Assembly: GCA_964017045.1 (NCBI GenBank)
Contig: OZ024797.1
Location: forward strand, 16,636,863-16,700,862
Length of the DNA stretch: 64,000 nt
Origin: Omphiscola glabra
Lineage: Eukaryota > Mollusca > Gastropoda > Lymnaeidae
Reading direction: 5' to 3'
The translations under genes and the position numbers were made by a program. The notes below the pieces were generated by a model that was not told the origin of the DNA, made no database searches, and saw nothing but the letters and a program-made list of their open reading frames with translations. This document shows, piece after piece, positions 1 to 64,000 of the stretch. The first letter of the stretch is position 1, and every line of letters begins with the position of its first letter.

Positions 1-354
1 CTGCTGATATGGTTTCATGAAATCACAATTTAATGGCTCAACAATAACATTTTATTCAGGACTGGGTAACTTAAAATAATTGTTTCCCTCAGTTTTAGTG
101 TTGCTCAATTAATAGCACCAATTTTCATACTGGGTCTGTCACAGATTCATTTATGGCAACTGAATTTCTAGATGACCCTGGTTGCTAAAAGAAAGGTAAT
201 CTATATCTGTTATATTTTAAATATTTTGAAACACTAAAAAAAACTTGATCAAGCAGGACAAATGAAATGAGAAGAATTAAATATATATGCCTTCAGCAGG
301 TGGTCAACTCTCAAGTTTAACCAAACTTTCTGTCAGTTTTCAAAAATTGTTTAG
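1..354. other. AT-rich non-coding left edge
   Basis: No exon with conserved protein features or repeat structure was recognised here. The 23-bp minisatellite begins at its right edge, and the only open frame nearby is a read-through into that array. Confidence 0.5.
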
Positions 355-3300
355 TCTTTTCAGCAAAAACAGTTTATTCTGTTCAGCAAAGACAGTTTAT
401 TCTGTACAGCAAAGACAGTTTATTCTGTTCAGCAAAAACAGTTTAGTCTGTTCAGCAAAAACAGTTTATTCTGTTCAGCAAAGACAGTTTAGTCTGTTCA
501 GCAAAAACAGTTTATTCTGTTCAGCAAAGACAGTTTATTCTGTACAGCAAAGACAGTTTATTCTTTTCATCAAAGACAGTTTATTCTGTTCAGCAAAAAT
601 AGTTTAGTCTGTTCAGCAAAAACAGTTTATTCTGTTCATCAAAGACAGTTTAGTCTGTTCAGCAAAGACAGTTTATTCTGTTCAGCAAAGACAGTTTAGT
701 CTGTTCAGCAAAGACAGTTAATTCTGTTCAGCAAAGACAGTTTATTCTGTTCAGCAAAAACAGTTTAGTCTGTTCAGCAAAAACAGTTTAGTCTGTTCAG
801 CAAAAACAGTTTAGTCTGTTCAGCAAAGACAGTTTATTCTGTTCAGCAAAAACAGTTTAGTCTGTTCAGCAAAAACAGTTTAGTCTGTTCAGCAAAAACA
901 GTTTAGTCTGTTCAGCAAAAACAGTTTAGTCTGTTCAGCAAAGACAGTTTAGTCTGTTCAGCAAAGACAGTTTAGTCTGTTCAGCAAAAACAGTTTAGTC
1001 TGTTCAGCAAAAACAGTTTAGTCTGTTCAGCAAAGACAGTTTATTCTGTTCAGCAAAGACAGTTTAGTCTGTTCAGCAAAAACAGTTTATTCTGTTCAGC
1101 AAAAACAGTTTAGTCTGTTCAGCAAAAACAGTTTAGTCTGTTCAGCAAAAACAGTTTAGTCTGTTCAGCAAAGACAGTTTAGTCTGTTCAGCAAAAACAG
1201 TTTAGTCTGTTCAGCAAAAACAGTTTAGTCTGTTCAGCAAAGACAGTTTAGTCTGTTCAGCAAAAACAGTTTAGTCTGTTCAGCAAAAACAGTTTAGTCT
1301 GTTCAGCAAAAACAGTTTAGTCTGTTCAGCAAAGACAGTTTAGTCTGTTCAGCAAAGACAGTTTAGTCTGTTCAGCAAAAACAGTTTAGTCTGTTCAGCA
1401 AAAACAGTTTAGTCTGTTCAGCAAAGACAGTTTATTCTGTTCAGCAAAAACAGTTTAGTCTGTTCAGCAAAAACAGTTTAGTCTGTTCAGCAAAAACAGT
1501 TTATTCTGTTCAGCAAAAACAGTTTAGTCTGTTCAGCAAAAACAGTTTAGTCTGTTCAGCAAAAACAGTTTAGTCTGTTCAGCAAAGACAGTTTATTCTG
1601 TTCAGCAAAAACAGTTTAGTCTGTTCAGCAAAAACAGTTTAGTCTGTTCAGCAAAAACAGTTTAGTCTGTTCAGCAAAGACAGTTTAGTCTGTTCAGCAA
1701 AGACAGTTTATTCTGTTCAGCAAAAACAGTTTAGTCTGTTCAGCAAAGACAGTTTAGTCTGTTCAGCAAAGACAGTTTATTCTGTTCAGCAAAAACAGTT
1801 TAGTCTGTTCAGCAAAAACAGTTTAGTCTGTTCAGCAAAAACAGTTTATTCTGTTCAGCAAAAACAGTTTAGTCTGTTCAGCAAAAACAGTTTAGTCTGT
1901 TCAGCAAAAACAGTTTAGTCTGTTCAGCAAAGACAGTTTATTCTGTTCAGCAAAAACAGTTTAGTCTGTTCAGCAAAAACAGTTTAGTCTGTTCAGCAAA
2001 AACAGTTTAGTCTGTTCAGCAAAGACAGTTTAGTCTGTTCAGCAAAGACAGTTTATTCTGTTCAGCAAAAACAGTTTAGTCTGTTCAGCAAAGACAGTTT
2101 AGTCTGTTCAGCAAAGACAGTTTATTCTGTTCAGCAAAAACAGTTTAGTCTGTTCAGCAAAAACAGTTTAGTCTGTTCAGCAAAAACAGTTTAGTCTGTT
2201 CAGCAAAAACAGTTTAGTCTGTTCAGCAAAAACAGTTTAGTCTGTTCAGCAAAAACAGTTTATTCTGTTCAGCAAAAACAGTTTAGTCTGTTCAGCAAAA
2301 ACAGTTTAGTCTGTTCAGCAAAAACAGTTTAGTCTGTTCAGCAAAAACAGTTTAGTCTGTTCAGCAAAAACAGTTTAGTCTGTTCAGCAAAAACAGTTTA
2401 GTCTGTTCAGCAAAAACAGTTTATTCTGTTCAGCAAAAACAGTTTAGTCTGTTCAGCAAAAACAGTTTAGTCTGTTCAGCAAAAACAGTTTAGTCTGTTC
2501 AGCAAAAACAGTTTAGTCTGTTCAGCAAAAACAGTTTAGTCTGTTCAGCAAAAACAGTTTAGTCTGTTCAGCAAAAACAGTTTAGTCTGTTCAGCAAAAA
2601 CAGTTTAGTCTGTTCAGCAAAAACAGTTTAGTCTGTTCAGCAAAAACAGTTTAGTCTGTTCAGCAAAAACAGTTTAGTCTGTTCAGCAAAAACAGTTTAG
2701 TCTGTTCAGCAAAAACAGTTTAGTCTGTTCAGCAAAAACAGTTTAGTCTGTTCAGCAAAAACAGTTTAGTCTGTTCAGCAAAAACAGTTTAGTCTGTTCA
2801 GCAAAGACAGTTTATTCTGTTCAGCAAAAACAGTTTAGTCTGTTCAGCAAAAACAGTTTATTCTGTTCAGCAAAAACAGTTTAGTCTGTTCAGCAAAAAC
2901 AGTTTAGTCTGTTCAGCAAAGACAGTTTAGTCTGTTCAGCAAAAACAGTTTAGTCTGTTCAGCAAAAACAGTTTAGTCTGTTCAGCAAAAACAGTTTATT
3001 CTGTTCAGCAAAAACAGTTTAGTCTGTTCAGCAAAAACAGTTTAGTCTGTTCAGCAAAAACAGTTTAGTCTGTTCAGCAAAAACAGTTTAGTCTGTTCAG
3101 CAAAAACAGTTTAGTCTGTTCAGCAAAAACAGTTTAGTCTGTTCAGCAAAAACAGTTTAGTCTGTTCAGCAAAAACAGTTTAGTCTGTTCAGCAAAAACA
3201 GTTTAGTCTGTTCAGCAAAAACAGTTTAGTCTGTTCAGCAAAAACAGTTTAGTCTGTTCAGCAAAAACAGTTTAGTCTGTTCAGCAAAAACAGTTTAGTC

Positions 3301-3517
3301 TGTTCAGCAAAAACAGTTTAGTCTGTTCAGCAAAAACAGTTTAGTCTGTTCAGCAAAAACAGTTTAGTCTGTTCAGCAAAAACAGTTTAGTCTGTTCAGC
3401 AAAAACAGTTTATTCTGTTCAGCAAAAACAGTTTAGTCTGTTCAGCAAAAACAGTTTAGTCTGTTCAGCAAAAACAGTTTAGTCTGTTCAGCAAAAACAG
3501 TTTAGTCTGTTCAGCAA
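355..3517. repeat. 23-bp minisatellite, about 137 copies
   Basis: A 23-bp unit built around ctgttcagcaaaaacag repeats head to tail for about 3.16 kb, with almost no length variation and no spacers. Two positions vary in an almost two-state manner: aaaaac versus aaagac, and tttagt versus tttatt. Minority variants are frequent in the left two thirds, and the right third is nearly homogeneous. Each unit contains short inverted repeats (ctgtt with aacag), so the single strand could form a ladder of small hairpins. Because 23 is not a multiple of 3, the array reads in all three frames in turn, and the short ORFs in it are artefacts. Confidence 0.97.
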
Positions 3518-19981: not shown

Positions 19982-20300
19982 CAACATACCCTACCTTCTC
20001 CTCACTCTCAACATACCCTAACTTCTCCTCACTCGCAACATACCTTACCTTCTCCTCACTCGCAACATACCTTAAACTCACTCGCAACATACCTTACCTT
20101 CTCCTCACTCGCAACATACCTTATCTTCTCCTCACTCGCAACATACCTTACCTTCTCACTCCAAAAATACCCTACCTTCTCACCCCACCAATACCTTACC
20201 TTCTCCTCACTCTCAACATACCCTACTTTCTCACCCCCATCATACCTTACCTTCTCCTCACCCCTACCACACCCTACCTCCTGCTCACCCCCACCATATC
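19982..20300. repeat. ~27-bp minisatellite, right part
   Basis: Variable copies of caacatacc followed by ttaccttctcctcactc. The reading frame stays open for 173 codons (19946-20467), but the translation is only a repeat artefact rich in His, Pro, Ser and Thr. Confidence 0.85.
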
Positions 20301-20672
20301 CTACTTTCTTTACAACCCTCTTCTCAACCAACGCCATCCACACTCTGCTCCCCGCGCCTCAGAACACCAGTAATTTTTTCAGTAAATTAACAATGATTAA
20401 AAACTGTCCTGGTTCGGACAAAACAGAAGAAGAAACTAACGGTCCAGAAGGCTATGAACTAAATTAACTCAAAAGTCAAATAGTTAAATCGGTTAATATA
20501 AACAAAACTTAAACAAAAGCACTCACTATTTTTTATATAATGTTATTTTAATTAATGCAACAGAATATAATTAGTGTCTCTCGCAATCTAAAATTAATCA
20601 TTAATTAAGTACATTTCTATGCATACGCCCATCAGCCAACGATTTAACAGTGTCAAATCATTGGGCAGACGT
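20301..20672. other. Intergenic, nothing recognised
   Basis: AT-rich spacer between two minisatellites. No splice-compatible coding segment or inverted repeat was found. Confidence 0.5.
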
Positions 20673-21466: not shown

Positions 21467-22557
21467 ACGGTGACATGAGTCGAGTGGAATGTTGACTTTG
21501 GTGGCGTCTTAAAAATTCCTTGATTGTATATCTGGTTTTTATATCTCATATAATTATGTAACAATATTTCGTCTTGACATTCATTATAAATAAACACAAT
21601 GGCACACAAAATAAAATGCAGACACGGTAGCACTACAAAATGCAGACTATAGACACTACCATACTAAAGGAATAATATTGCATTGTCAAATGACAGATTA
21701 GTGACACTGCCAAATGCTATATCACAACATTTGTGTGACATAATAGCACTATGAAATGACAGACACAATGATACAGTGATACCGCCGCATTATATTTAAG
21801 AACGAACACGGCTTTGTCCCAACACAATGGTCGGAAAATCAAAAATTTGAAATTAAGAACAACGACATACAAACCAGACTTATCAAAACTTTCCAAGGAA
21901 ATGTAAGGTCATAGTTCACATTAAATGCGTGTTTTTTTTGTTGTGTTTTGTGTGTGTGTGTTTTGTTTTTTGTTTTTGCCAATAAGATGACTATTTTAAT
22001 ATCTGTTTGAATTTAATGTTTAATGCGTCTTTATTTTTTGTCAATAAATAGATTATTATTGTTGTATCTGGTTGTATTTGATGTTTAGCAGCTTGTTTAA
22101 ACCGACTCCGAAAAACATGGCTCTTGGCAGTTTCTTGCTGATAATTTTTGGCTCTTTTGATTAATGAGTTTTCCGATCACTGCCCCAACATCATATACAT
22201 GAAGTTAACTGCACTGGCTAGACATTGTTTACTATTGCCAGTACCAGAGAATGTCCATTAGCAATATCTGTCCATAAACACATTGTGATGGTAAAAATAA
22301 TATCATGAGTATTATATTCTTACACATCATAGACGCACTCTTCAAGTAATTAGACAACTTGACACTCACACGTTTCTTATCATAAAAGGTTGGCTCCGTT
22401 AATGATAAAAGGTTGGCTCCGTTAATGAAAGAATCAAATGGTAACTAACCCAGAGAACAATCAAATTATGCATAATTATAAAATAAAACAATCAACATAT
22501 TTAAAATCAACTTTTCTTTTAGCATAAATCAACACAGGGTCTTCTCTGTAGCATCTA
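21467..22557. other. Intergenic spacer
   Basis: No exon recognised. It has a T/G-rich stretch near 21925-21980 and an immediate 22-bp duplication (ggttggctccgttaatga) near 22387-22430. Confidence 0.5.
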
Positions 22558-22671: not shown

Positions 22672-22836
22672 CTGTAGCCCATCAAGAATGAGACTGGTGC
22701 TACTTGTATGTATATCATAAACAAAATAGAGAATTGTATGGGGATGTAGCATGTATCAAGATATAATTTAATTATATTCTATGTTTAAAAGCCTATATGC
22801 TAATTAGTTATCCATAAGTGTACAGTGTTGCTATTT

Positions 22837-23748
22837 TTAATCCCTTCGTGGATGTATTGTCCGTCTGTATAGTCTCGCCCATATCTCTCTAGCAATTCTA
22901 CCGAAATCAGCCAATAGTTGTCTTTGTAACCTACATGACTCCGCCCATATTTGTCTTGCTCCTCTACATAACTCCGCCCATATCAGTCTTGTCACCCTAT
23001 AAAACTCCAACCACATAAGTCTTGACACCCTGTAAAACTCCACCCACATTATACTTGACACTCTATAAAACTCCGCCCATACACGACAAGCCACTCTAAA
23101 GAACTCCTCCCATACCCTCTCACCCACTCTGTATAGCATCAGCCATATTTTCCTTGCAACTCTATAAATCTCCGCCCATATTTGTCTCGTCACTCTACAT
23201 ATCTCAATCCATAATAATCTTGTCACTCTACATATCTCAATCCATAATAATCTCATCACTCGACATAACTCAATCCATAATAATCTTGTTACTCGACATA
23301 TCTCTAACCATACTTTTCTTGTAACTCTACATAGCTCTCTCCATGTTGGTCTTGCAAATCTACATAACTCTTTACATATTGGTCCTACTACCCTTCTTAT
23401 TCCTCTCCATAGTATTCTTGCTATTCTACATAACTCCACCCATATCTGTCTTGACACTCTACATAGCCACGCCCATATTCGTCTTGACACTCTACATAAC
23501 CACGCCCATGTTTGTCTTGACACACTACATAACCACGGCCATGTTTTTGTAACCACTGTATATAATCCATTCCAAATATATGTTGATACTCTACATAACC
23601 ACGCCCATATATATTTAACAATTGTACATAACCAAGTCCATGTGTAGCTTGCTAGTCTAGAAAGCCACTCCCATGTTTGTCTGGCCTTCCTCTCAGCTTC
23701 GTCCATGTTCCTCTGTGTAGGGATGTATGCCTGTAAGGCGTAAAACAT
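22837..23748 (-). CDS. Unrecognised Trp/Arg hendecad-repeat protein
   Basis: A continuous 303-codon frame runs from the first ATG at 23748 to TAA at 22837. After about 30 residues it consists of about 25 copies of an 11-residue unit with consensus I-W-x-E-L-C-R-V-x-R-x. Position 2 is Trp in nearly every unit, position 7 is Arg in most, position 10 is mostly Arg, and position 6 is Cys or Tyr. Hydrophobic residues at 1, 5 and 8 give the 3-4-4 spacing of hendecads, which predicts one long amphipathic helix: either a coiled coil of the right-handed or straight kind, or a surface- or membrane-lying helix. N-terminal units have a second Trp at position 4; later units have Glu there. Units differ much more in DNA than those of the neighbouring minisatellites, yet no stop or frameshift has appeared. 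An acceptor-like site at 23731 (cgccttacag before GCATAC) could make this an internal or last exon. I do not recognise a family. Alternatively it is a chance-open 33-bp minisatellite. Confidence 0.5.
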   Translation of the reverse strand: MFYALQAYIPTQRNMDEAERKARQTWEWLSRLASYTWTWLCTIVKYIWAWLCRVSTYIWNGLYTVVTKTWPWLCSVSRQTWAWLCRVSRRIWAWLCRVSRQIWVELCRIARILWRGIRRVVGPICKELCRFARPTWRELCRVTRKVWLEICRVTRLLWIELCRVMRLLWIEICRVTRLLWIEICRVTRQIWAEIYRVARKIWLMLYRVGERVWEEFFRVACRVWAEFYRVSSIMWVEFYRVSRLMWLEFYRVTRLIWAELCRGARQIWAESCRLQRQLLADFGRIAREIWARLYRRTIHPRRD

Positions 23749-23760
23749 GTCACGTTTCAA

Positions 23761-24479
23761 TGATCAATCGACTCATGAACGTATGTTTAAAATTAGAATT
23801 TTCTTGTTTCGTTATTTCGTGAAATCGGTGTCATCATATTTCCTTCATCTTCCTCTTGAAAAAACAGAAAAAATGATTTTTCGGAGTTGGGGATTGGGTT
23901 TTAAATTTGAAAGAATGTGTTGTCAACGGTATTTAAATATATTTTTTTAATGCTCTTAAAATACCATTTCAATGTTTCCAGAAAATCAAGTTACCTTTTG
24001 AATCGTCGACGGCGGTAATCTCATCTGTAGGTAAATGTAACAGGAAATATAGAAGATGAATTGGCCATTTAAATCACATTGATATTTTAACATTTAACAA
24101 AATTTATATTGCTTACCGAGTTGTGAGTTACATGTGGGTGGAAAGCCCTTTAATTTAGAAGCAGCCGACTGTGTAAACCGTGAAATATGGCTATGGGTAT
24201 TTCTAGGTGGGACATTTCCTAGTTTCACCCGTGTCATTTCCCAACGCCCAGCAGCCCGCAGTCCCATTTTTCCCCCCACACCAAAAAAAAATTTTTTTTT
24301 AAAAACAATCGTAATAATATCGTCTCCACTGAACTGAGTGGTACCTGTCCTTCGATAGCGTGCACAAACAGAATGACAAATATCCCGATTTCTAATCCGT
24401 CTGTATGGGAAATTTTTGATATGTAAAAACCCTGTTACATAATATGTAAAAAATTTCAACCACATTTTTGTTAGCTCCA
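23761..24479. other. Spacer between gene B and the hendecad ORF
   Basis: AT-rich with no recognised exon. It must contain the 3' UTR of gene B immediately left of 24480. A short A/T homopolymer block (about 24284-24305) interrupts it. Confidence 0.45.
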
Positions 24480-27400
24480 TTACCAAAGAGATTCATCACT
24501 CCAGCCTAATTCCATAAACATGTTGTATTTATAGCGTGGTTTGACCCAGTTCTGTGCTGTACCCACAATGCTCTTTCCGACCTTCCAACCATAGAGTTGA
24601 TTAGTAGTGGGCGGGGGAACTGAATCACACGGTTTGAAGCTGCTCAAATAAAATAGCCAATGAAATGATGTGTTAGCTTAGCACAGGTGGCGGAGCCAAT
24701 GAAATGATATGTTAGCTTGACACAGGTGGCGGAGCCAATGAAATGATATGTTAGCTTGGCACAGGTGGCGGAGCCAATGAAATGATATGTTAGCTTGACA
24801 CAGGTGGCGGAGCCAATGAAATGATATGTTAGCTTGACACAGGTGGCGGAGCCAATGAAATGATATGTTAGCTTGGCACAGGTGGCGGAGCCAATGAAAT
24901 GATAATTTAGCTTGGCACTGGTGGCGGAGCCAATGAAATGATATGTTAGCTTGGCACAGGTGGCGGAGCCAATGAAATGATATGTTAGCTTGACACAGGT
25001 GGCGGAGCCAATGAAATGATATGTTAGCTTGGCACAGGTGGCGGAGCCAATGAAATGATATGTTAGCTTGGCACAGGTGGCGGAGCCAATGAAATGATAT
25101 GTTAGCTTGACACAGGTGGCGGAGCCAATGAAATGATATGTTAGCTTGACACAGGTGGCGGAGCCAATGAAATGATATGTTAGCTTGGCACAGGTGGCGG
25201 AGCCAATGAAATGATATGTTAGCTTGGCACAGGTGGCGGAGCCAATGAAATGATATGTTAGCTTGGCACAGGTGGCGGAGCCAATGAAATGATATGTTAC
25301 CTTGACACAGGTGGCGGAGCCAATGAAATGATATGTTAGCTTGGCACAGGTGGCGGAGCCAATGAAATGATAATTTAGCTTGGCACTGGTGGCGGAGCCA
25401 ATGAAATGATATGTTAGCTTGGCACAGGTGGCGGAGCCAATGAAATGATATGTTAGCTTGACACAGGTGGCGGAGCCAATGAAATGATATGTTAGCTTGG
25501 CACAGGTGGCGGAGCCAATGAAATGATATGTTAGCTTGGCACAGGTGGCGGAGCCAATGAAATGATATGTTAGCTTGACACAGGTGGCGGAGCCAATGAA
25601 ATGATATGTTAGCTTGACACAGGTGGCGGAGCCAATGAAATGATATGTTAGCTTGGCACAGGTGGCGGAGCCAATGAAATGATATGTTAGCTTGGCACAG
25701 GTGGCGGAGCCAATGAAATGATATGTTAGCTTGGCACAGGTGGCGGAGCCAATGAAATGATATGTTACCTTGACACAGGTGGCGGAGCCAATGAAATGAT
25801 ATGTTAGCTTGACACAGGTGGCGGAGCCAATGAAATGATATGTTAGCTTGACACAGGTGGCGGAGCCAATGAAATGATATGTTAGCTTGACACAGGTGGC
25901 GGAGCCAATGAAATGATATGTTAGCTTGGCACAGGTGGCGGAGCCAATGAAATGATATGTTAGCTTGACACAGGTGGCGGAGCCAATGAAATGATATGTT
26001 AGCTTGACACAGGTGGCGGAGCCAATGAAATGATGTGTTAGCTTAGCACAGGTGGCGGAGCCAATGAAATGATATGTTAGCTTGGCACAGGTGGCGGAGC
26101 CAATGAAATGATATGTTAGCTTGACACAGGTGGCGGAGCCAATGAAATGATATGTTAGCTTGGCACAGAAGGCGGAGCCAATGAAATGATGTGTTAGCTT
26201 GACACAGGTGGCGGAGCCAATGAAATGATATGTTAGCTTGGCACAGGGGGTGAGAGATTAAGTACAAGCAAAAAGTGAAATAAAAGAGAATAAGTATGTC
26301 CACTGTGATTGGTCGTGACGCGGATGGGTGTAGCAAAGGATTAACAGGTAACTGAAAACATGACATTCATGACGTGTGGTTTCAAGGTTCCATAAGTCTG
26401 CATCAGCTTGTTTTCCCAATTGTGTCCCGTCTCCAAACATTTCAACAGAAGCGACCACTGCGGGTTTTGCAATTAGTGATCGGTTTTAAAACTGAACTCA
26501 GTTAAATACAAGTTCAGACAATAGCAGGGTGTCATCAGAACAGGATGTCACCAGAGCAGGGTGTCACCTGAGCAAGATGCCATATGAACATAGAGCCACC
26601 AGAAAGGGGTGTCACAAGAGCAACATGACATATGAACATAGAGCAACCAGATCAGGGTGTTACCAGAGCAAGATGCCATATGAACATAGAGCCACCAGAA
26701 AAGGGTGTCACCAGAGCAAGTTACCACCAGAGTAGGGTGCCAATATAGCAGGATACCACCAGAGCAGGGTGTAACCATGGCAGGCAGACCAGGGTGCAAT
26801 CAGAGTAGGTTGCAAACAAAGCAGGTTTCAACTAAAACAGGATGCCACCAGAGCAGGTTGCCAACATAACAGGGTGCTGTTAAAGTCAGGTGTCTATAGA
26901 ACAGGGTTCCACCAGAACAGAGTTTCACCCAGACAGGACCCACCAGAGCACTGTAATAGGGTGTCACAAGAGCAGGGTGCCACCAGACAGAGCAGAGTGC
27001 CACCAGACAGAGCAGAGTGCCATCAGAGTAGGTTGCAGCCAGGTCAGGGTGCCAAATGAGCAAGTTTCCTCCATTGATGGGTAATACCAGAGCAGGGTGC
27101 CACCAGAGTGGGGTGCCACCAAAGCGGGGTACCACCAGGGCGGGGTGCCACCAGAGCAGAATGAAACCAGAACAAGGTGCCACCAGCGTGGGGTGCCACC
27201 AGAGCGGGGTGCCACCAGAGCGGGTAGCCACCAGAGCAGGGTGCCACCAGAGCGGGGTGCCACCAGAGCGGGGTGCCACAACAACTGTGAGATTCGGAAG
27301 GGGTTAATGTTTTTTTAGGGGGGGGGGAGTATAGAGGGGATGAAGAAAATGATAAGGAGCATTCAAGAAATGGTAGGGAAGAAAGTCTCTGCAGAAAATG

Positions 27401-30400
27401 TAATCCAAATCAAACATGAAAAAGTCGTCTCCTTTCAATTCGAATCCTTTGGCTACATAGAGTGCTCATCTGCACAGTCTTTATTGGCGTATTGCATTTA
27501 AGAAATTTTAAATAATTGTCAACTTTGTAGTGCTTTTGAACTCGTCTTTGATAGAAAGTTTTTATATATATATATATATATATATAGTAGGCCCTACTAT
27601 AGACTATATGCGTCTTCTTTAGTAGGCCCTACTATTATTATATTTAATTTATATCTGCTACACTCACCTTTTTGACTTCTGAGATTCTGAATCAGGCCAC
27701 AAGTGAGCGAACTCTTCTGGGTCAACTCTGATAATTTTGGAAGGGAGTGGCTTTCTTTGCCCTTGGTCTAGTTTCTTATTCATCTATCGTTGAAAATAAG
27801 TATAAAATGAGATGATTCATCATACTCATTATATTTAAATTGAAATAATAAAATTTGCCACCTCACCGTGTACCTAAAAGTAGATTTCTCTATGACATGG
27901 AAACAATGTCCATGCTAGCAATTTTATTTGTTTCATGCGCATTTATTTTGTTTTTAAGCAACAATCATGGCTGTGTTGTTCTTGAACAGGAGTCAACCAC
28001 ACATGTACCAGTGACGACGTCAAGCAAAATTGGTCATGTTAAAATTCCCATTTCCCATCCCATCCAATTTATATGTATACAATCTGTATCTTAACATTTT
28101 ACATTGTCTGAGTTGAGAGTTACAGAGAGTAACAATTGTAACTATCGCCGCAGATTACAATAATTATTTCCCCCTTCTACCAACATTGCAACATTGTCAC
28201 ACTGTACCCCCACACCAACATTGTCCCACTGTTCCCCCACACCAAGATTGTCCCACTGTACCCCCACACCAAGATTGTCACAATGTACCCCCACATCCCC
28301 CACCCCCCACCCCCAACGTCGTCACAAAATCTCGACTCCTCAAAATTAATGACTATGAATTCATGCCCCCTCTCCTGACCTCTTTACCGTATACTAAACC
28401 CCACCCACAAAGTCCCACCTCAGAGTAAACAGGTAAGATGTAGCCCCACTGACTTGTCCAAAGTCTGCGATTGATCAAGTTTTCTTTGTCGATCATTTCT
28501 TTCCTGTCAAAAATGGAAATTTAAAGTGCACTTGTACATGAGATTGTTCAAAAGCACGGCCTTGTGGACCACTTTGGGTGACATCGTTAGATTTTTTTTT
28601 TTGCACGTCTGGCTGGGGGGAGGGGATAATTAGGGGTTAAAACGTTGCCTTGTCTGACGTGATTTTATTGGCCTAGATCTGTAGTCTATACGAATTGATC
28701 TATGCGCCTCGAAATAATGCGTCTAGATCTGAAAATGTCACATAGGAGATGGCGTCGGTGGGCCGTCAAGCGCGAGCTCTTAATGTCCCCTCTTCCGGCA
28801 CACCTCCACACGGGCCAGACGCCGGGTTTCCCCGCCGACAGACGCCGGGAACCCCCTCCCCTCTGCCCTGTGGGACGTCCTGTCGACCGAAAACGATGCG
28901 TTTAAAGCGTTCGTGGTCCACTCTCCCAAGGGTCAGGGCGGTTTGCTTCCACTCCGGAGCCGGAGGGATGGTGTTGTGTTACCACCCCCACCGCCCATGG
29001 AGTCTTTCGGTCGGGACGGAAAGCTGCGACGAAACGGTATCCTAGGAGCGGCTTTCTCACGGCCACCTAGATCTAATATGTTTCTTGAATTAATGTGCCT
29101 TGATTTCTGTATCTTGAATGTATGTGTCTTGAATCATTTGAATCATTTGAATGTATGTGTCTTGAATGTATGTGTCTAGATTTAATACGTGTCTTGGATT
29201 GATGTGCACTGATTTAATGAGTGCCTTGAAATTATGCGCCTTGGTTTAATATGGTCCTTGAATAAAATTAATGTTCACTGGTGTAATCTGGGTCGTTAAT
29301 AGTGTAATCTGGGTCGTTAATAGTGTAATCTGGGTCGTTAATAGTGTAATCTGGGTCGTTAATAGTGTAATCTGGGTCGTTAATAGTGTAATCTGGGTCG
29401 TTAATAGTGTAATCTGGGTCGTTAATAGTGTAATCTGGGTCGTTAATAGTGTAATCTGGGTCGTTAATAGTGTAATCTGGGTCGTTAATAGTGTAATCTG
29501 GGTCGTTAATAGTGTAATCTGGGTCGTTAATAGTGTAATCTGGGTCGTTAATAGTGTAATCTGGGTCGTTAATAGTGTAATCTGGGTCGTTAATAGTGTA
29601 ATCTGGGTCGTTAATAGTGTAATCTGGGTCGTTAATAGTGTAATCTGGGTCGTTAATAGTGTAATCTGGGTCGTTAATAACTCTACTACTGCTATTATAT
29701 TAGGCTTTTGCCCTTAATTGATGGGCCTTGATCTAATGTAACTTTATCTCAGCGGATCCCTAATACGTTAGTAAGGATATTAAAATCACGCCTAAATCTA
29801 CAGTTTTGATCGGGACTGCGGAAATCTAACAAGGTTTAACTGGTTTGCGGGAAATGTTTGTTTGTCACAACAAATAGTCCCAGGAAATGTTTGCTTGTCA
29901 CAACAAATAGTCCCAGGAAATGTTTGTTTGTTACAACAAAAAGTCCCAGGAAATGTTTGCTTGTCACAACAAATAGTCCCAGGAAATGTTTGCTTGTCAC
30001 AACAAATAGTCCCAGGAAATGTTTGCTTGTCACAACAAATAGTCCCAGGAAATGTTTGCTTGTCTCAACAAATAGTCCAACGGGTAACCTACGTGGTGCT
30101 TTTCTTTCCCCTTATCATTTTTTTTTTTTTAATGTGGAGACGAAATTATTGCGGCGATGAAGGGTTTGTTGTACTGCGGTTTGTGGCAGGAACACCAGCA
30201 GATGAAATCTGTAGGAGACTAAAAGTATTGCTAGCTAGTCGACGTAAAGTAGTCCTTGCAAAAATTATAGCTCTAAAAATTAGCGCAAATGCCAATAGAA
30301 TATTATGGATGTTTATGTCTGGTTTCATCAACACAATGATAATGTCATTCAACTATGATGGCCTAAAATATTACCCCAAAAAACACCCGCATTACGTAAT

Positions 30401-57472: not shown

Positions 57473-59872
57473 ATGGCGCTCATTCGACATTCTTCAACAT
57501 TACGTTTGTCATGGAAGTTGTTAGCAGTAGAATTCAAGTCTATTCATTTGTCAACTAGACCCAATAAAAAGTATGATTATGATCTTGATAGCTTAATTCA
57601 ATTTAAGAAGGAAACAACCCTTGTTTTTGGGGCAGAGCGTAAACTAACAAAAACTGGAAAACTGAGAAAGAAAAAAGTAGACTCCAAGATTAATGACTAT
57701 TTACAAGTTCTGAGTGCTTATTCAACCCAAGATTTGAATGATTTCCAAATAAATCAAACTTTGGACATTGAATTTGATGGTGTTGAGAATTATCAAGAGG
57801 GTCAAGATCAGCTGTTAGAGCTAACCACTAATAAATCTTCACCAGTTACAAGGAATAGTAAATCTAAATTTAAAACAAAAAGGACAACAAATTTACTCAA
57901 GTGTGTATCTGAAGATTTTGAAAATAAGGACAAACCAGATACAGAGTGTACAACTGAAGAAATTCCTATTCCTAAAATTTCTGCTGTACCATTATCACAG
58001 ACATGTGTAAAGAAATTACAGGAGAAGAGACAAAAAAAAGTTGTAAATAATTCCAAAGAATTTGATGCAAACAATTTGCAAAAGTCTTCAGATATTCATT
58101 TCACCAAAGCAGAATCCGAATTGCAGTTGAACTCCTCAATAGAAAGCAGCAATAATTTATCAATAAACAGCCAGTCAAAAAAAACTATGTCTTATGACAC
58201 AAAAACATCAAATGATGAAATTTTAATTCCTAAAATGGCTCCAATTCCTGATGAGAAAACACATTTTCCGGTTTCAGTGCCATTTGAAATTGCTGTATCC
58301 CAGTCACAGACAATCCATTTGAAATCATTCATAAATCCTCCAATTGAACCCCCAAGCTCTTTTGATGTCATATTTAAGGTGCCTTTGTTTTCTAATGAAA
58401 GTACAAGCTGGCAAACAAGTGCAGATTTTCACGAGTTTCAAAAAGACATAGAACAGATGGAATTAAGAACCTCGCCCTCTGTAAAAACTATTCTCAGTAA
58501 AACTATGCCTGAAACAAATAGGTTTTTTCTCAATCGCTGGCGTGAGAATATGATCAAAGAACTTGGTGAAGAAGGATTTAAAAAACATCAAGATGGTAAG
58601 AACTTTTAATAATCTTGTCACTGAGTTACAATTTCATTCCAGTTCAAGCCACTGATTTTAACTAAAATCAGAATATATTATAATGTTTCACTTGACAAAT
58701 ACAGAATGATGAAAAATACTCTGACTATTATAGCTTAGAAAAAGAAATAGTATTATTTTAGAATTGCCAAAGTTAAAATTTGTACTTTGAAAAATATTTT
58801 ATTATCTTTTATTTTAATTCCAGCAACAATCAGGAAGGGTGTCAATCTCCATGCCAATATCATGGAGTACTTGTCAAAGAAGCCAATAAATGAAATACAA
58901 ATCATGCCAGAAAATGAGGGACACTGGGCAAGTCTCCAGTCTGTTTTTCAAGCAGTTTCTGGTGTAGCAGCTTTAGAAGTTGAGGTCTTTCATTCTTATC
59001 TGTTCTATAGGGGCGTGTTTGACTGCATTGGCCGTTACAAGTAAGAGTGTCTAAAAATATCCATAAATTCTTTGCTTGAGAAATCTTTGAATGTTCAGAA
59101 TAATTTATTTTATTAATTGTATATTATAAATAATGATTAATGGAAGAATGGACCAAGAAATGGTAAATAATGATCCTTTCATTTGTATTAAATTTAGAGA
59201 CCTTCTTTGTATCATTGACTGGAAGACGTCTAAAAAGAGTCGTCCACTTCTTAAGAATACCTATGATGATCCACTACAAATAGTAGCATACATGGGAGCT
59301 ATCAACTCTAATGACCGATACACCCAAAAGGTCAGTGCAAGTCAGTTATCAATGAGTTTATAATAATAGGTTTCTTTGGCTCTTTGAAAGTAATTGACTT
59401 TGAATCATAAAAAAATCCATAAACAATTGAAGTTGCAAATCATTAAATTAATTATATGTTGTTTAATTTTACCATAAGATCTATGCCAAATAAAGATAAA
59501 GCAAGTCATAAAAAAAATTATTGAAGAAAAATACATTAATCCGCTCTGGTGTATAGCAAAATAAACATTGACACAGTTTCAAAGCCTTTTCTAATTAGAA
59601 AAATTATGGTCTTCTATATTTTATCTTTTTACCATCTTGTCTCAATATTTGATCAGTTTGGTGAGGTTAACTATGGTATGATAGTTGTGGCTTACACTGA
59701 CGGCAGCCCCGCCCACATCCACCTCATGAACAGAACAACTTGTGAAGTGTATTGGAAGGATTGGACAGATCGTCTCTACAACTTTTATCAGTTGACATAC
59801 ACAGAAAAGGTTGGAACAAAGAAAATTTCTCATGACGGATTTCCCAAGAGAAGTGAAAAAATTGCCGCTTGA
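57473..59872 (+). CDS. MGME1: Mitochondrial genome maintenance exonuclease 1
   Basis: Four plus-strand exons: 57473-58595, 58824-59040, 59198-59330 and 59657-59872 (TGA). All have GT-AG sites and matching phase and encode 562 residues. The N-terminus (MALIRHSSTLRLSWKLL) looks like a mitochondrial targeting sequence. A long, poorly conserved Lys/Ser-rich stretch of about 310 residues follows, so the protein is considerably longer than the human one (about 344). The nuclease part begins near residue 335 (SVKTILSKTMPETNRFFLNR, WRENMIKELGEEGF). It then has KGVNLHANIM, QAVSGVAALEVEV, GVFDCIGRYK, the PD-(D/E)XK signature IDWKTS, YDDPLQIVAYMGA, and GMIVVAYTDGSPAHIHLM. These match MGME1, the single-stranded DNA exonuclease that trims flaps during mtDNA replication. 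The Asp of GVFDC and the Asp and Lys of IDWK are the expected metal-binding and catalytic residues. Confidence 0.95.
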
Positions 59873-62420: not shown

Positions 62421-64000
62421 TTAATCATCCAGCTGACATATCATGGCGACCCCTCTTAGGATCCAAAAGTCTGGCGGCTGCTCTGATGGTAATGTGATAG
62501 ACGTGACAAAGTTGGTGGAGTGCCCAGTGGATGACAGAGTGCCCGCCCTTGCTGATGTCCGGTAGAGAGGACATTCATAGGAACTCTCTGTAAAAGTTTT
62601 TCTGGTAGACAGATCTTTTGAGTCCACAAATTGGGATGCTGATGAGTTGACTTCTCTGTGCTGAAACAAAAATTTATTTATGGTATTATCTCTAAGGCAA
62701 GAAATTTCAGATAAGGATTTCCTAAGTTTTTGCAGAGTATAAATATGGAATTAAAATGAATCTAATATTGCGATTAGATAAGTGAAAGAGTCCTCCTTGT
62801 ATCTAATACTCAAGTTTAAATAAAATACATTTTGATAAATTCCTAACCTCTCTTGGCTCAAAATGAATATCAGGGAGACAACAAAATCGCTTGTTGGTTA
62901 AACAGTCCTGCAGTGTATGAGTTTCTGAATCCCAACGAGCACCATCTAGAAATAAACCACTAACAAGGACCCCATTCTCTGGAGACTTGACCTGGACAGA
63001 CAAATAAAAAGTTATATTTTTATGTCATTGGAATTTTTTTTTAATCTCTCATGTGGATGAGGAAAGTTTTTAAATATATAATCAATACAAATATAGTTGA
63101 ATTTAAGAAATGTTTACAAAACTAACATTATTTGAACAAAGTAGTTAATTACATTTTCAAGTAAAATTGAAATATATAAATGAGTAATATTCTTTGATTA
63201 TTAACCGATTGGTACAAATTGTTCTAAAATTAAATTTATTAGCAAACCATTTCAGAGGGTAGGAAAGCATGACAGCTATAAATTGAAAATTTCTTAACTC
63301 ACAGAATAAGACATTTCTTTAACACTGGATGTTGCTGAATCTGACCGCTCAGATTTCTCACTGCTGATTTCTGTGGCAGGTCTTTCAATCTCAAACTTGA
63401 ATTCTAATGAGTCAACAGAAATTCCAACTTTGCGGGCATGATTCTGAAGCACAGCCGTCAAGAAACCTTTGGGTGAAAATATTTGTAATGAGTGTAAGGG
63501 ATTATGCATAGAACTATTATTTTGAATTTCTTTTAACGTAACATTTAAAAACATTTATTTGGAAATAACTTAAGTAAATCTTGAAAAGCTGATGCCCAAA
63601 GGTGTGAGCTTTGAACCTATCTTATCCAAATATTTTCATATTTTACAAAGATGATCATATACTACACACATATTCATGTTAAAATAAAGCTCTGACTTCC
63701 ATTACCCTGCTTTCAATCATGGTAACAATGGCAATGTTCCATTCTTGGATTGTGTTAATTTATTAACAAATTTGCATCCAAATAAAAATTCATTTCACCT
63801 TGAGGAAAGAAAAATGCAGACAGCCAGAAAGTTGTTGGTTGTGTTTCAGACCGGGTGTCAACATTTCCAGCTGTATCTTTTACATTGCGTACAATTTGTC
63901 TGAATTTTTTCTCTATGCTCGAAGATAGTAGCTTGGCCCACTCAGCAAAAAACTCCACTCTCTGTTGTAAGTCAGACACCCAGGAAGATAATGATTTTGT
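62421..64000 (-). CDS. Axonemal dynein heavy chain, C-terminal part
   Basis: The minus strand gives the last four exons: at least 64000-63799 (runs off the window), 63466-63303, 62991-62848 and 62660-62421 (stop). Splice sites are GT-AG and phase is kept. Recognisable motifs of the dynein heavy chain C-terminal region are [69 protein letters not shown], then [29 protein letters not shown] and [15 protein letters not shown]. These belong to the single-headed inner-arm type of axonemal dynein, the motor that bends cilia and flagella. A Ser/Glu-rich insert ([16 protein letters not shown]) interrupts the segment before GLFLDGARW. The paralogue number cannot be fixed from this piece; DNAH6- or DNAH14-like is a guess. 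Confidence 0.93.

Follow-up and report, generated by a model that had tools for sequence, protein, structure and literature searches.

Does a long open reading frame (ORF) lying among the tandem repeats of a snail genome encode a protein, or has a minisatellite simply stayed free of stop codons? The question is raised by a 64,000-nucleotide stretch of Omphiscola glabra DNA (contig OZ024797.1, positions 16,636,863 to 16,700,862; hereafter the window), for which the ORF listing gives a minus-strand frame at 22837-23748 consisting of 303 codons and TAA. An initial annotation, made from the letters alone, had described about 25 Trp/Arg hendecads here and proposed selection on the protein; the exact coordinates, the 25 units and the open frame are all confirmed. 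The reading favoured in this work, with moderate confidence, is that the ORF represents a real, lineage-restricted protein-coding exon. Its product of approximately 290-300 residues, nearly all of them in 25 hendecads of the form x-I-W-x-E-L-C/Y-R-V-small-R, would fold as a straight hendecad helical bundle carrying a row of Arg residues opposite a hydrophobic stripe.

The array comprises 25 contiguous 33-bp units that are all in frame, share a single ungapped register and contain no stop (Table 1). The register reads x-I-W-x-E-L-C-R-V-x-R, placing Trp at position 3, where it occurs in 23 of 25 units and is thus nearly invariant, as had been claimed. Arg occupies position 8 in 22/25 units, position 6 is Leu, Ile or Phe in 24/25, and position 9 is Val, Ile, Leu or Phe in 23/25. 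Position 5 is Glu in 14/25 and Trp in 6/25, and since the Trp form is limited to units 1-7 (six of the seven), the Glu of the originally described motif is not universal. Position 11 is Arg in 16/25 units, the combination R8-x-x-R11 is present in 15/25, and position 1 is highly variable. Position 7 is Cys in 14 units and Tyr in 7; Cys chemistry as the essence of the repeat was ruled out because of this alternation. Over its 275 residues the array contains 46 Arg, 29 Trp, 16 Ala, and 16 Thr, with a net charge of +32. Pairwise identity among the 33-bp units averages 61% (a mean difference of 39%). Certain adjacent units are 91-97% identical, so the array may still be gaining and losing whole 33-bp units.

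The start codon of AACATGG begins 27 bp ahead of unit 1, and the ORF stop comes five codons past the last unit. At E ≤10 a single-unit DNA profile recovers every unit (24 of 25) except unit 9 (23383-23415), which is covered by a two-unit profile. A six-frame search of the window found no convincing further copy, the next best match having E 0.019 (24060-24155, plus strand). One upstream stretch is unit-like apart from a one-base gap (score 8.5, shuffle P 0.12), unlike the downstream flank (shuffle P 0.80); given these values, no unit is claimed outside the ORF.

Selection on the protein, specific to one frame, is supported by the absence of stops and indels and by a codon model. The history of the units was represented as a minimum spanning tree with 175 substitutions. 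Simulated substitutions predict 10.7 new stops in the ORF frame (standard deviation 3.1), and none is observed. Observed and expected stops in the other five frames are 17 and 15.3, 18 and 16.4, 24 and 17.4 (slightly high, P 0.038), 4 and 5.2, and 7 and 7.8. With an empirical substitution spectrum 13.6 stops are expected in the ORF frame, or 11.2 if column rates are held, and none of 4000 simulations reached zero. Shuffling bases within columns leads to an expectation of 8.9 stops, with zero in none of 5000 trials. Among single changes in the ORF array 8.7% create a stop, compared with 4.5% and 4.1% for a pair of other array ORFs in the window and 5.4% for the MGME1 exon described below. Indel rates were calibrated on a 166-bp repeat family located 3-12 kb from the array. 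Twenty-six copies of at least 100 bp show 43 gap openings per 695 substitutions, and the 15 copies with at least 85% identity show 10 per 274, corresponding to approximately 11 and 6 indels expected in the array, respectively; none is observed in the 33-bp register. The codon model finds a best omega of 0.4 in the ORF frame (2dlnL 12.4 vs. omega 1). Three control frames, with 14, 20, and 18 stop-free units, have best omegas of 0.8, 1.3, and 1.7, the first two not different from 1 and the last leaning above it (2dlnL 4.08); in the remaining two frames just 5 and 3 units are free of stops. Because of the zero stops, the lack of register indels and the omega of about 0.4, the frame appears selected rather than lucky, and the proposal of selection on the protein is upheld on the same grounds.

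The residues retained are mainly those of one helical stripe together with Arg 8. Eight unit positions were compared with neutral simulation, and the residue-class changes seen and expected, respectively, are 3 and 11.4 for W3, 0 and 4.1 for I2 (hydrophobic or Thr), 2 and 8.1 for R8, 3 and 8.0 for C/Y7, 1 and 5.1 for L6, 3 and 4.9 for V9, 4 and 6.7 for E5, and 9 and 6.9 for R11; W3, I2, R8, C/Y7, and L6 are nominally significant. Across the 275 residues the hydrophobic moment is largest at 98.0 degrees, the angle of a hendecad, and reaches 0.45 at 98.18 degrees compared with a maximum of 0.20 in 2000 shuffles. This peak supports the hendecad period proposed earlier. On an 11/3 wheel, positions 9, 2, 6, 10, 3, and 7 make up a single stripe about 164 degrees wide (65 to 229 degrees), and R8 lies opposite the stripe centre at 327 degrees.

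The ORF probably encodes a long helical rod. In hendecad helices the hydrophobic stripe runs straight, and the chain would form straight 11/3 helices. AlphaFold2 was run on the single sequence, and for a C-terminal fragment of 16 units (units 10-25) the best of five models contains two long helices (pLDDT 86.0, pTM 0.61). The single rod of about 300 residues envisaged earlier is not what these models depict, since they split the full length into four long helices and the fragment into two. The chain may double back at Gly/Pro breaks so that the stripes face each other in an antiparallel bundle, with Ile, Leu, Val, Trp, Cys, and Tyr inside and the Arg row outside. A three- or four-helix bundle is feasible because the stripe is wide enough, and it could form within one chain or through dimerisation. 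The outward Arg row might in turn dock the rod on an anionic partner such as membrane phospholipid, nucleic acid or an acidic protein; fold, oligomer and partner are what we infer from the pattern of the units. Foldseek against the PDB returned no match at E ≤0.001 for either model, the best being a BAR domain (E 2.5) and a chemoreceptor model (E 0.91). A link to cilia received no significant support, five of the 26 non-significant Foldseek rows (E 3.8-7.5) being axonemal-doublet chains.

The initial statement that the ORF has no recognisable relative held in every collection searched. No Pfam family scored above its cut-off, the sole hit being a chance one to PF09075 (E 0.54, 10.8 bits vs. 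a cut-off of 25), and PDB sequences yielded one match only, to a tape measure protein (E 0.12). Among approximately 5.8 billion proteins the ORF query drew 6201 candidates, none at E ≤1, and a doubled query 4360, none at E ≤10; together the two query lengths span proteins of roughly 167 to 1020 residues. Prokaryote genome contigs contained 18 pattern matches and no relative among them. In titles and abstract openings, among the matches listed for hendecads, 11-mer repeats, coding minisatellites, and Lymnaea genomes, a Trp/Arg hendecad protein is not named, most subscription journals lying outside these records. The best reading is a fast-evolving and lineage-restricted gene, and the predicted product is filed among hendecad helical-repeat proteins, no relative of its type having been found so far.

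Several known systems share parts of this design. Under the a-d-e-h core rule for hendecad coiled coils, L6, V9, the small residue at 10 and I2 of the array fit the core. Unlike these coiled coils, the ORF array keeps 25 units in one register without heptads, and its near-invariant Trp and its Cys/Tyr site widen the hydrophobic face. LEA group 3 proteins are built of tandem 11-mers predicted to be helical, and are hydrophilic, rich in Ala, Lys, and Glu, and without Trp; the array shares the tandem 11-mers, differs by its Trp, and has no Pfam match above cut-off. Hyperactive type I antifreeze proteins are Ala-rich with Thr/Ala ice-binding 11-mers, unlike the array, in which Ala and Thr are far outnumbered by Arg. 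One of them, Maxi of the winter flounder (PDB 4ke2), is among the closest known systems; a straight hairpin of long helices characterises the class. Hendecad coiled coils, whose period of 11/3 residues the array shares, form slightly right-handed coils (PMC4786415).

The main rival is a real protein that works as a long amphipathic helix on the surface of membranes or lipids, like the 11-mers of apolipoproteins, synuclein and perilipin-4 (Plin4), with Trp and Tyr at the interface and Arg on anionic head groups; it seems a doubtful but serious alternative. The moment on the 11/3 wheel and the net charge speak for such a helix, and the composition is compatible with it (hydrophobic fraction 0.53, aromatic 0.167, charged 0.255); 82% of 18-residue windows pass a lipid-binding discriminant of HeliQuest. 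In PMC5889406, which gives such values in its Table 1, Plin4 and other 11-mer helices likewise have tandem 11-mers without insertions or deletions between repeats, a long amphipathic helix (here predicted) and a net positive charge. That table lists fractions of 0.35 hydrophobic, 0.002 aromatic, and 0.15 charged for Plin4 and 0.40, 0.065, and 0.35 for apoA-I. The ORF array is thus more hydrophobic and far more aromatic than Plin4; by the same definitions its aromatic fraction tops every helix tabulated (largest 0.11). Its whole-array moment exceeds those given there for apoA-I (0.39), synuclein (0.30), and Plin4 (0.257, a mean of helices), and is smaller than those of CCT-alpha and GMAP210 (both 0.48), CIDEA (0.53), and the artificial Hel 13-5 (0.69). 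A helix so rich in aromatic residues would probably bind membranes without selectivity, however, and AlphaFold2 pairs the helices. Arg 8, nominally constrained, sits at the centre of the polar face, off the interface, where a surface helix has no obvious need of it. Perilipin, exchangeable apolipoprotein and synuclein gave no sequence match in Pfam or PDB sequences. Two further readings were considered. In one, the ORF would be a secreted precursor of many 11-residue peptides, cleaved at the R-x-x-R that ends each unit; tandem peptide precursors are common in molluscs, and the motif recurs, as noted, in 15/25 units. This is very improbable, and R-x-x-R cleavage was ruled out because R11, beside the would-be cut, is not kept beyond neutral expectation; the first residue of the units is also highly variable, and a signal peptide is not evident by eye at the ORF N-terminus in this exon, though an exon further upstream may exist. 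In the other, selection would act on a DNA binding site or structural motif every 33 bp. Column rates do vary beyond Poisson (chi2 73.3, 32 df), but at the hydrophobic sites fast and slow columns follow codons (V9 has 9, 3, and 12 changes and L6 has 8, 1, and 5 at codon positions 1, 2, and 3), and both stop avoidance and the constraint on hydrophobicity are found in one frame of six. DNA-level selection is the least probable of all the explanations.

The array could also be a diverged minisatellite and no gene, with a frame open by luck or as the relic of a now-dead gene, which is judged unlikely; a gene that died only recently may be involved. The array sits amid about a dozen minisatellites, in a region (approximately 20-33 kb) crowded with tandem arrays. 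Open frames are common here in near-identical arrays (24655-26247, 29281-29679), and diverged ones can be open too, such as 26549-26777 (84% matches, one minus frame without a stop) and the 27-bp array at 19982-20309 (78% matches, 8% indels, stop-poor codons), two plus frames of which lack a stop in about 109 codons. Such chance-open, stop-poor arrays weigh against the favoured coding exon, and other results do so as well. Heterozygosity is nearly flat over codon positions 1, 2, and 3 (0.40, 0.35, and 0.37), which with the lack of relatives suits a minisatellite, and the search of predicted proteins gave no match from L. stagnalis or any other gastropod, though the database includes snails, with some L. 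stagnalis proteins among them, since the MGME1 exon retrieved four named gastropod proteins. Nei-Gojobori ratios (pN/pS) among units are only mildly low, ranging from 0.68 to 1.04 with kappa (the transition weight) and pair set, and the synonymous excess is modest (49.2 vs. 39.7, P 0.03). Column rate does not follow synonymous fraction (rho 0.13), the correlation between column changes and hydrophobicity (rho -0.44, p 0.010) comes uncorrected from a set of 18, and one control frame reached p 0.013 on the stop measure. The residue classes of the eight unit positions were chosen after seeing the data, only W3 and I2 survive correction for eight tests, and retention of E5, V9, and R11 is not significant against the neutral simulation. 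All selection estimates are limited by unit trees of 33 columns that ignore gene conversion between units. Gapped alignments by TRF give 2-3% indels in some rows of the array, so small compensated indels may have occurred. The structural models add their own caution: amphipathic helices of any kind tend to be packed by AlphaFold2, the model of the full length is weak (pLDDT 70.3, pTM 0.40), and the other four models of the fragment have pLDDT 73.8-81.0. Against a minisatellite, on the other hand, stand units that differ by 39% on average while using stop-prone codons, and a combination of zero stops and no indel that is hard to reach neutrally. Taken together, the results depict a sequence obliged to keep its frame open and its helix amphipathic, and otherwise largely free to vary.

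For the coding exon favoured here, an origin from a minisatellite can be put forward tentatively, as a possible rather than a likely history. A 33-bp array in this minisatellite-rich part of a lymnaeid genome would have gained translation and settled on a single frame, and its units would then have diverged while selection maintained a Trp/Arg hendecad helix. The outcome would be a helical-repeat protein of a new kind, built as a straight bundle with a hydrophobic stripe on one side and an Arg row on the other, unmatched in the collections searched. If expressed, the ORF would be a candidate animal gene arising from a minisatellite, its frame history legible in its own 25 diverged copies. Its product would also bring a natural Trp/Arg hendecad to the group of straight-helix proteins. 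To our knowledge, the familiar members of that group are mainly Ala-rich or weakly hydrophobic. Setting one frame against the other five within a single array could reveal other such genes that escape both homology searches and repeat masking.

Table 1. Elements of the hendecad ORF and its flanks, in window coordinates.
Feature	Position	Strand	Basis
ORF, 303 aa + TAA	22837..23748	-	open reading frame
Likely coding sequence from strong-context ATG (AACATGG; MDEAERKAR...), ORF residue 15	22837..23706	-	start inferred from Kozak context
25 contiguous 33-bp units, ungapped, stop-free	22855..23679	-	
Units 1-7, extra Trp at unit position 5 in 6/7	23449..23679	-	
Predicted C-terminal helix A, residues 124-205	23134..23379	-	AlphaFold2 fragment
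Predicted break between helices A and B, residues 206-209 (YRVG)	23122..23133	-	AlphaFold2 fragment
Predicted C-terminal helix B, residues 210-298	22855..23121	-	AlphaFold2 fragment
Splice-acceptor-like TTTTACGCCTTACAG just ahead of strong ATG	23731..23745	-	read from sequence; such sites common by chance
ATTAAA polyadenylation-like signal, ~65 bp past stop	22767..22772	-	hexamer match only

The start in Table 1 was chosen by the Kozak-context rule. The acceptor-like TTTTACGCCTTACAG ahead of it would mean either an intron in the 5' leader or a junction to a phase-0 upstream exon. Antisense to the ORF, the plus strand is free of stops for 159 codons (23168-23647); this stretch is taken as a by-product because plus-frame stop counts fit neutrality.

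Elsewhere in the window, the plus-strand exon at 57473-58609 is the first exon of MGME1 (mitochondrial genome maintenance exonuclease), matching Lymnaea stagnalis in 349 of 375 residues (93%) with differences spread throughout; on this match the window is animal DNA, probably from a close relative of that snail. On the minus strand, 62424-62750 holds an ORF similar to the last part of the dynein heavy-chain C-terminal domain (PF18199, E 3.5e-20), probably the last coding exon of a dynein heavy-chain gene. The earlier description of the neighbouring minisatellites as nearly identical between copies applies to the 41-, 39-, 21-, and 33-bp arrays (95-100% matches) and fails for certain 27-, 16-, and 48-bp array rows, which have only 60-84% matches. 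The array at 24655-26247 consists of about 41 copies of 39 bp with 96% matches; one minus frame is stop-free over 530 codons and another has 2 stops, an openness to be expected of a near-identical array with a period divisible by three. That at 29281-29679 (21 bp, 19 copies, 100% matches) lacks stops in three frames and looks very recent. Between 11656 and 19830 a repeat of approximately 160 bp with GGGGCCCCCGGCCCC cores recurs in 26 further copies of at least 100 bp. By identity to the query these fall into two classes (85-96% and 69-76%), which succeed one another as pairs or triplets. A 23-bp minisatellite with 138 copies and 96% matches occupies 341-3517, and a perfect 23-bp tandem duplication is found at 22382-22428, downstream of the 3' end of the ORF.
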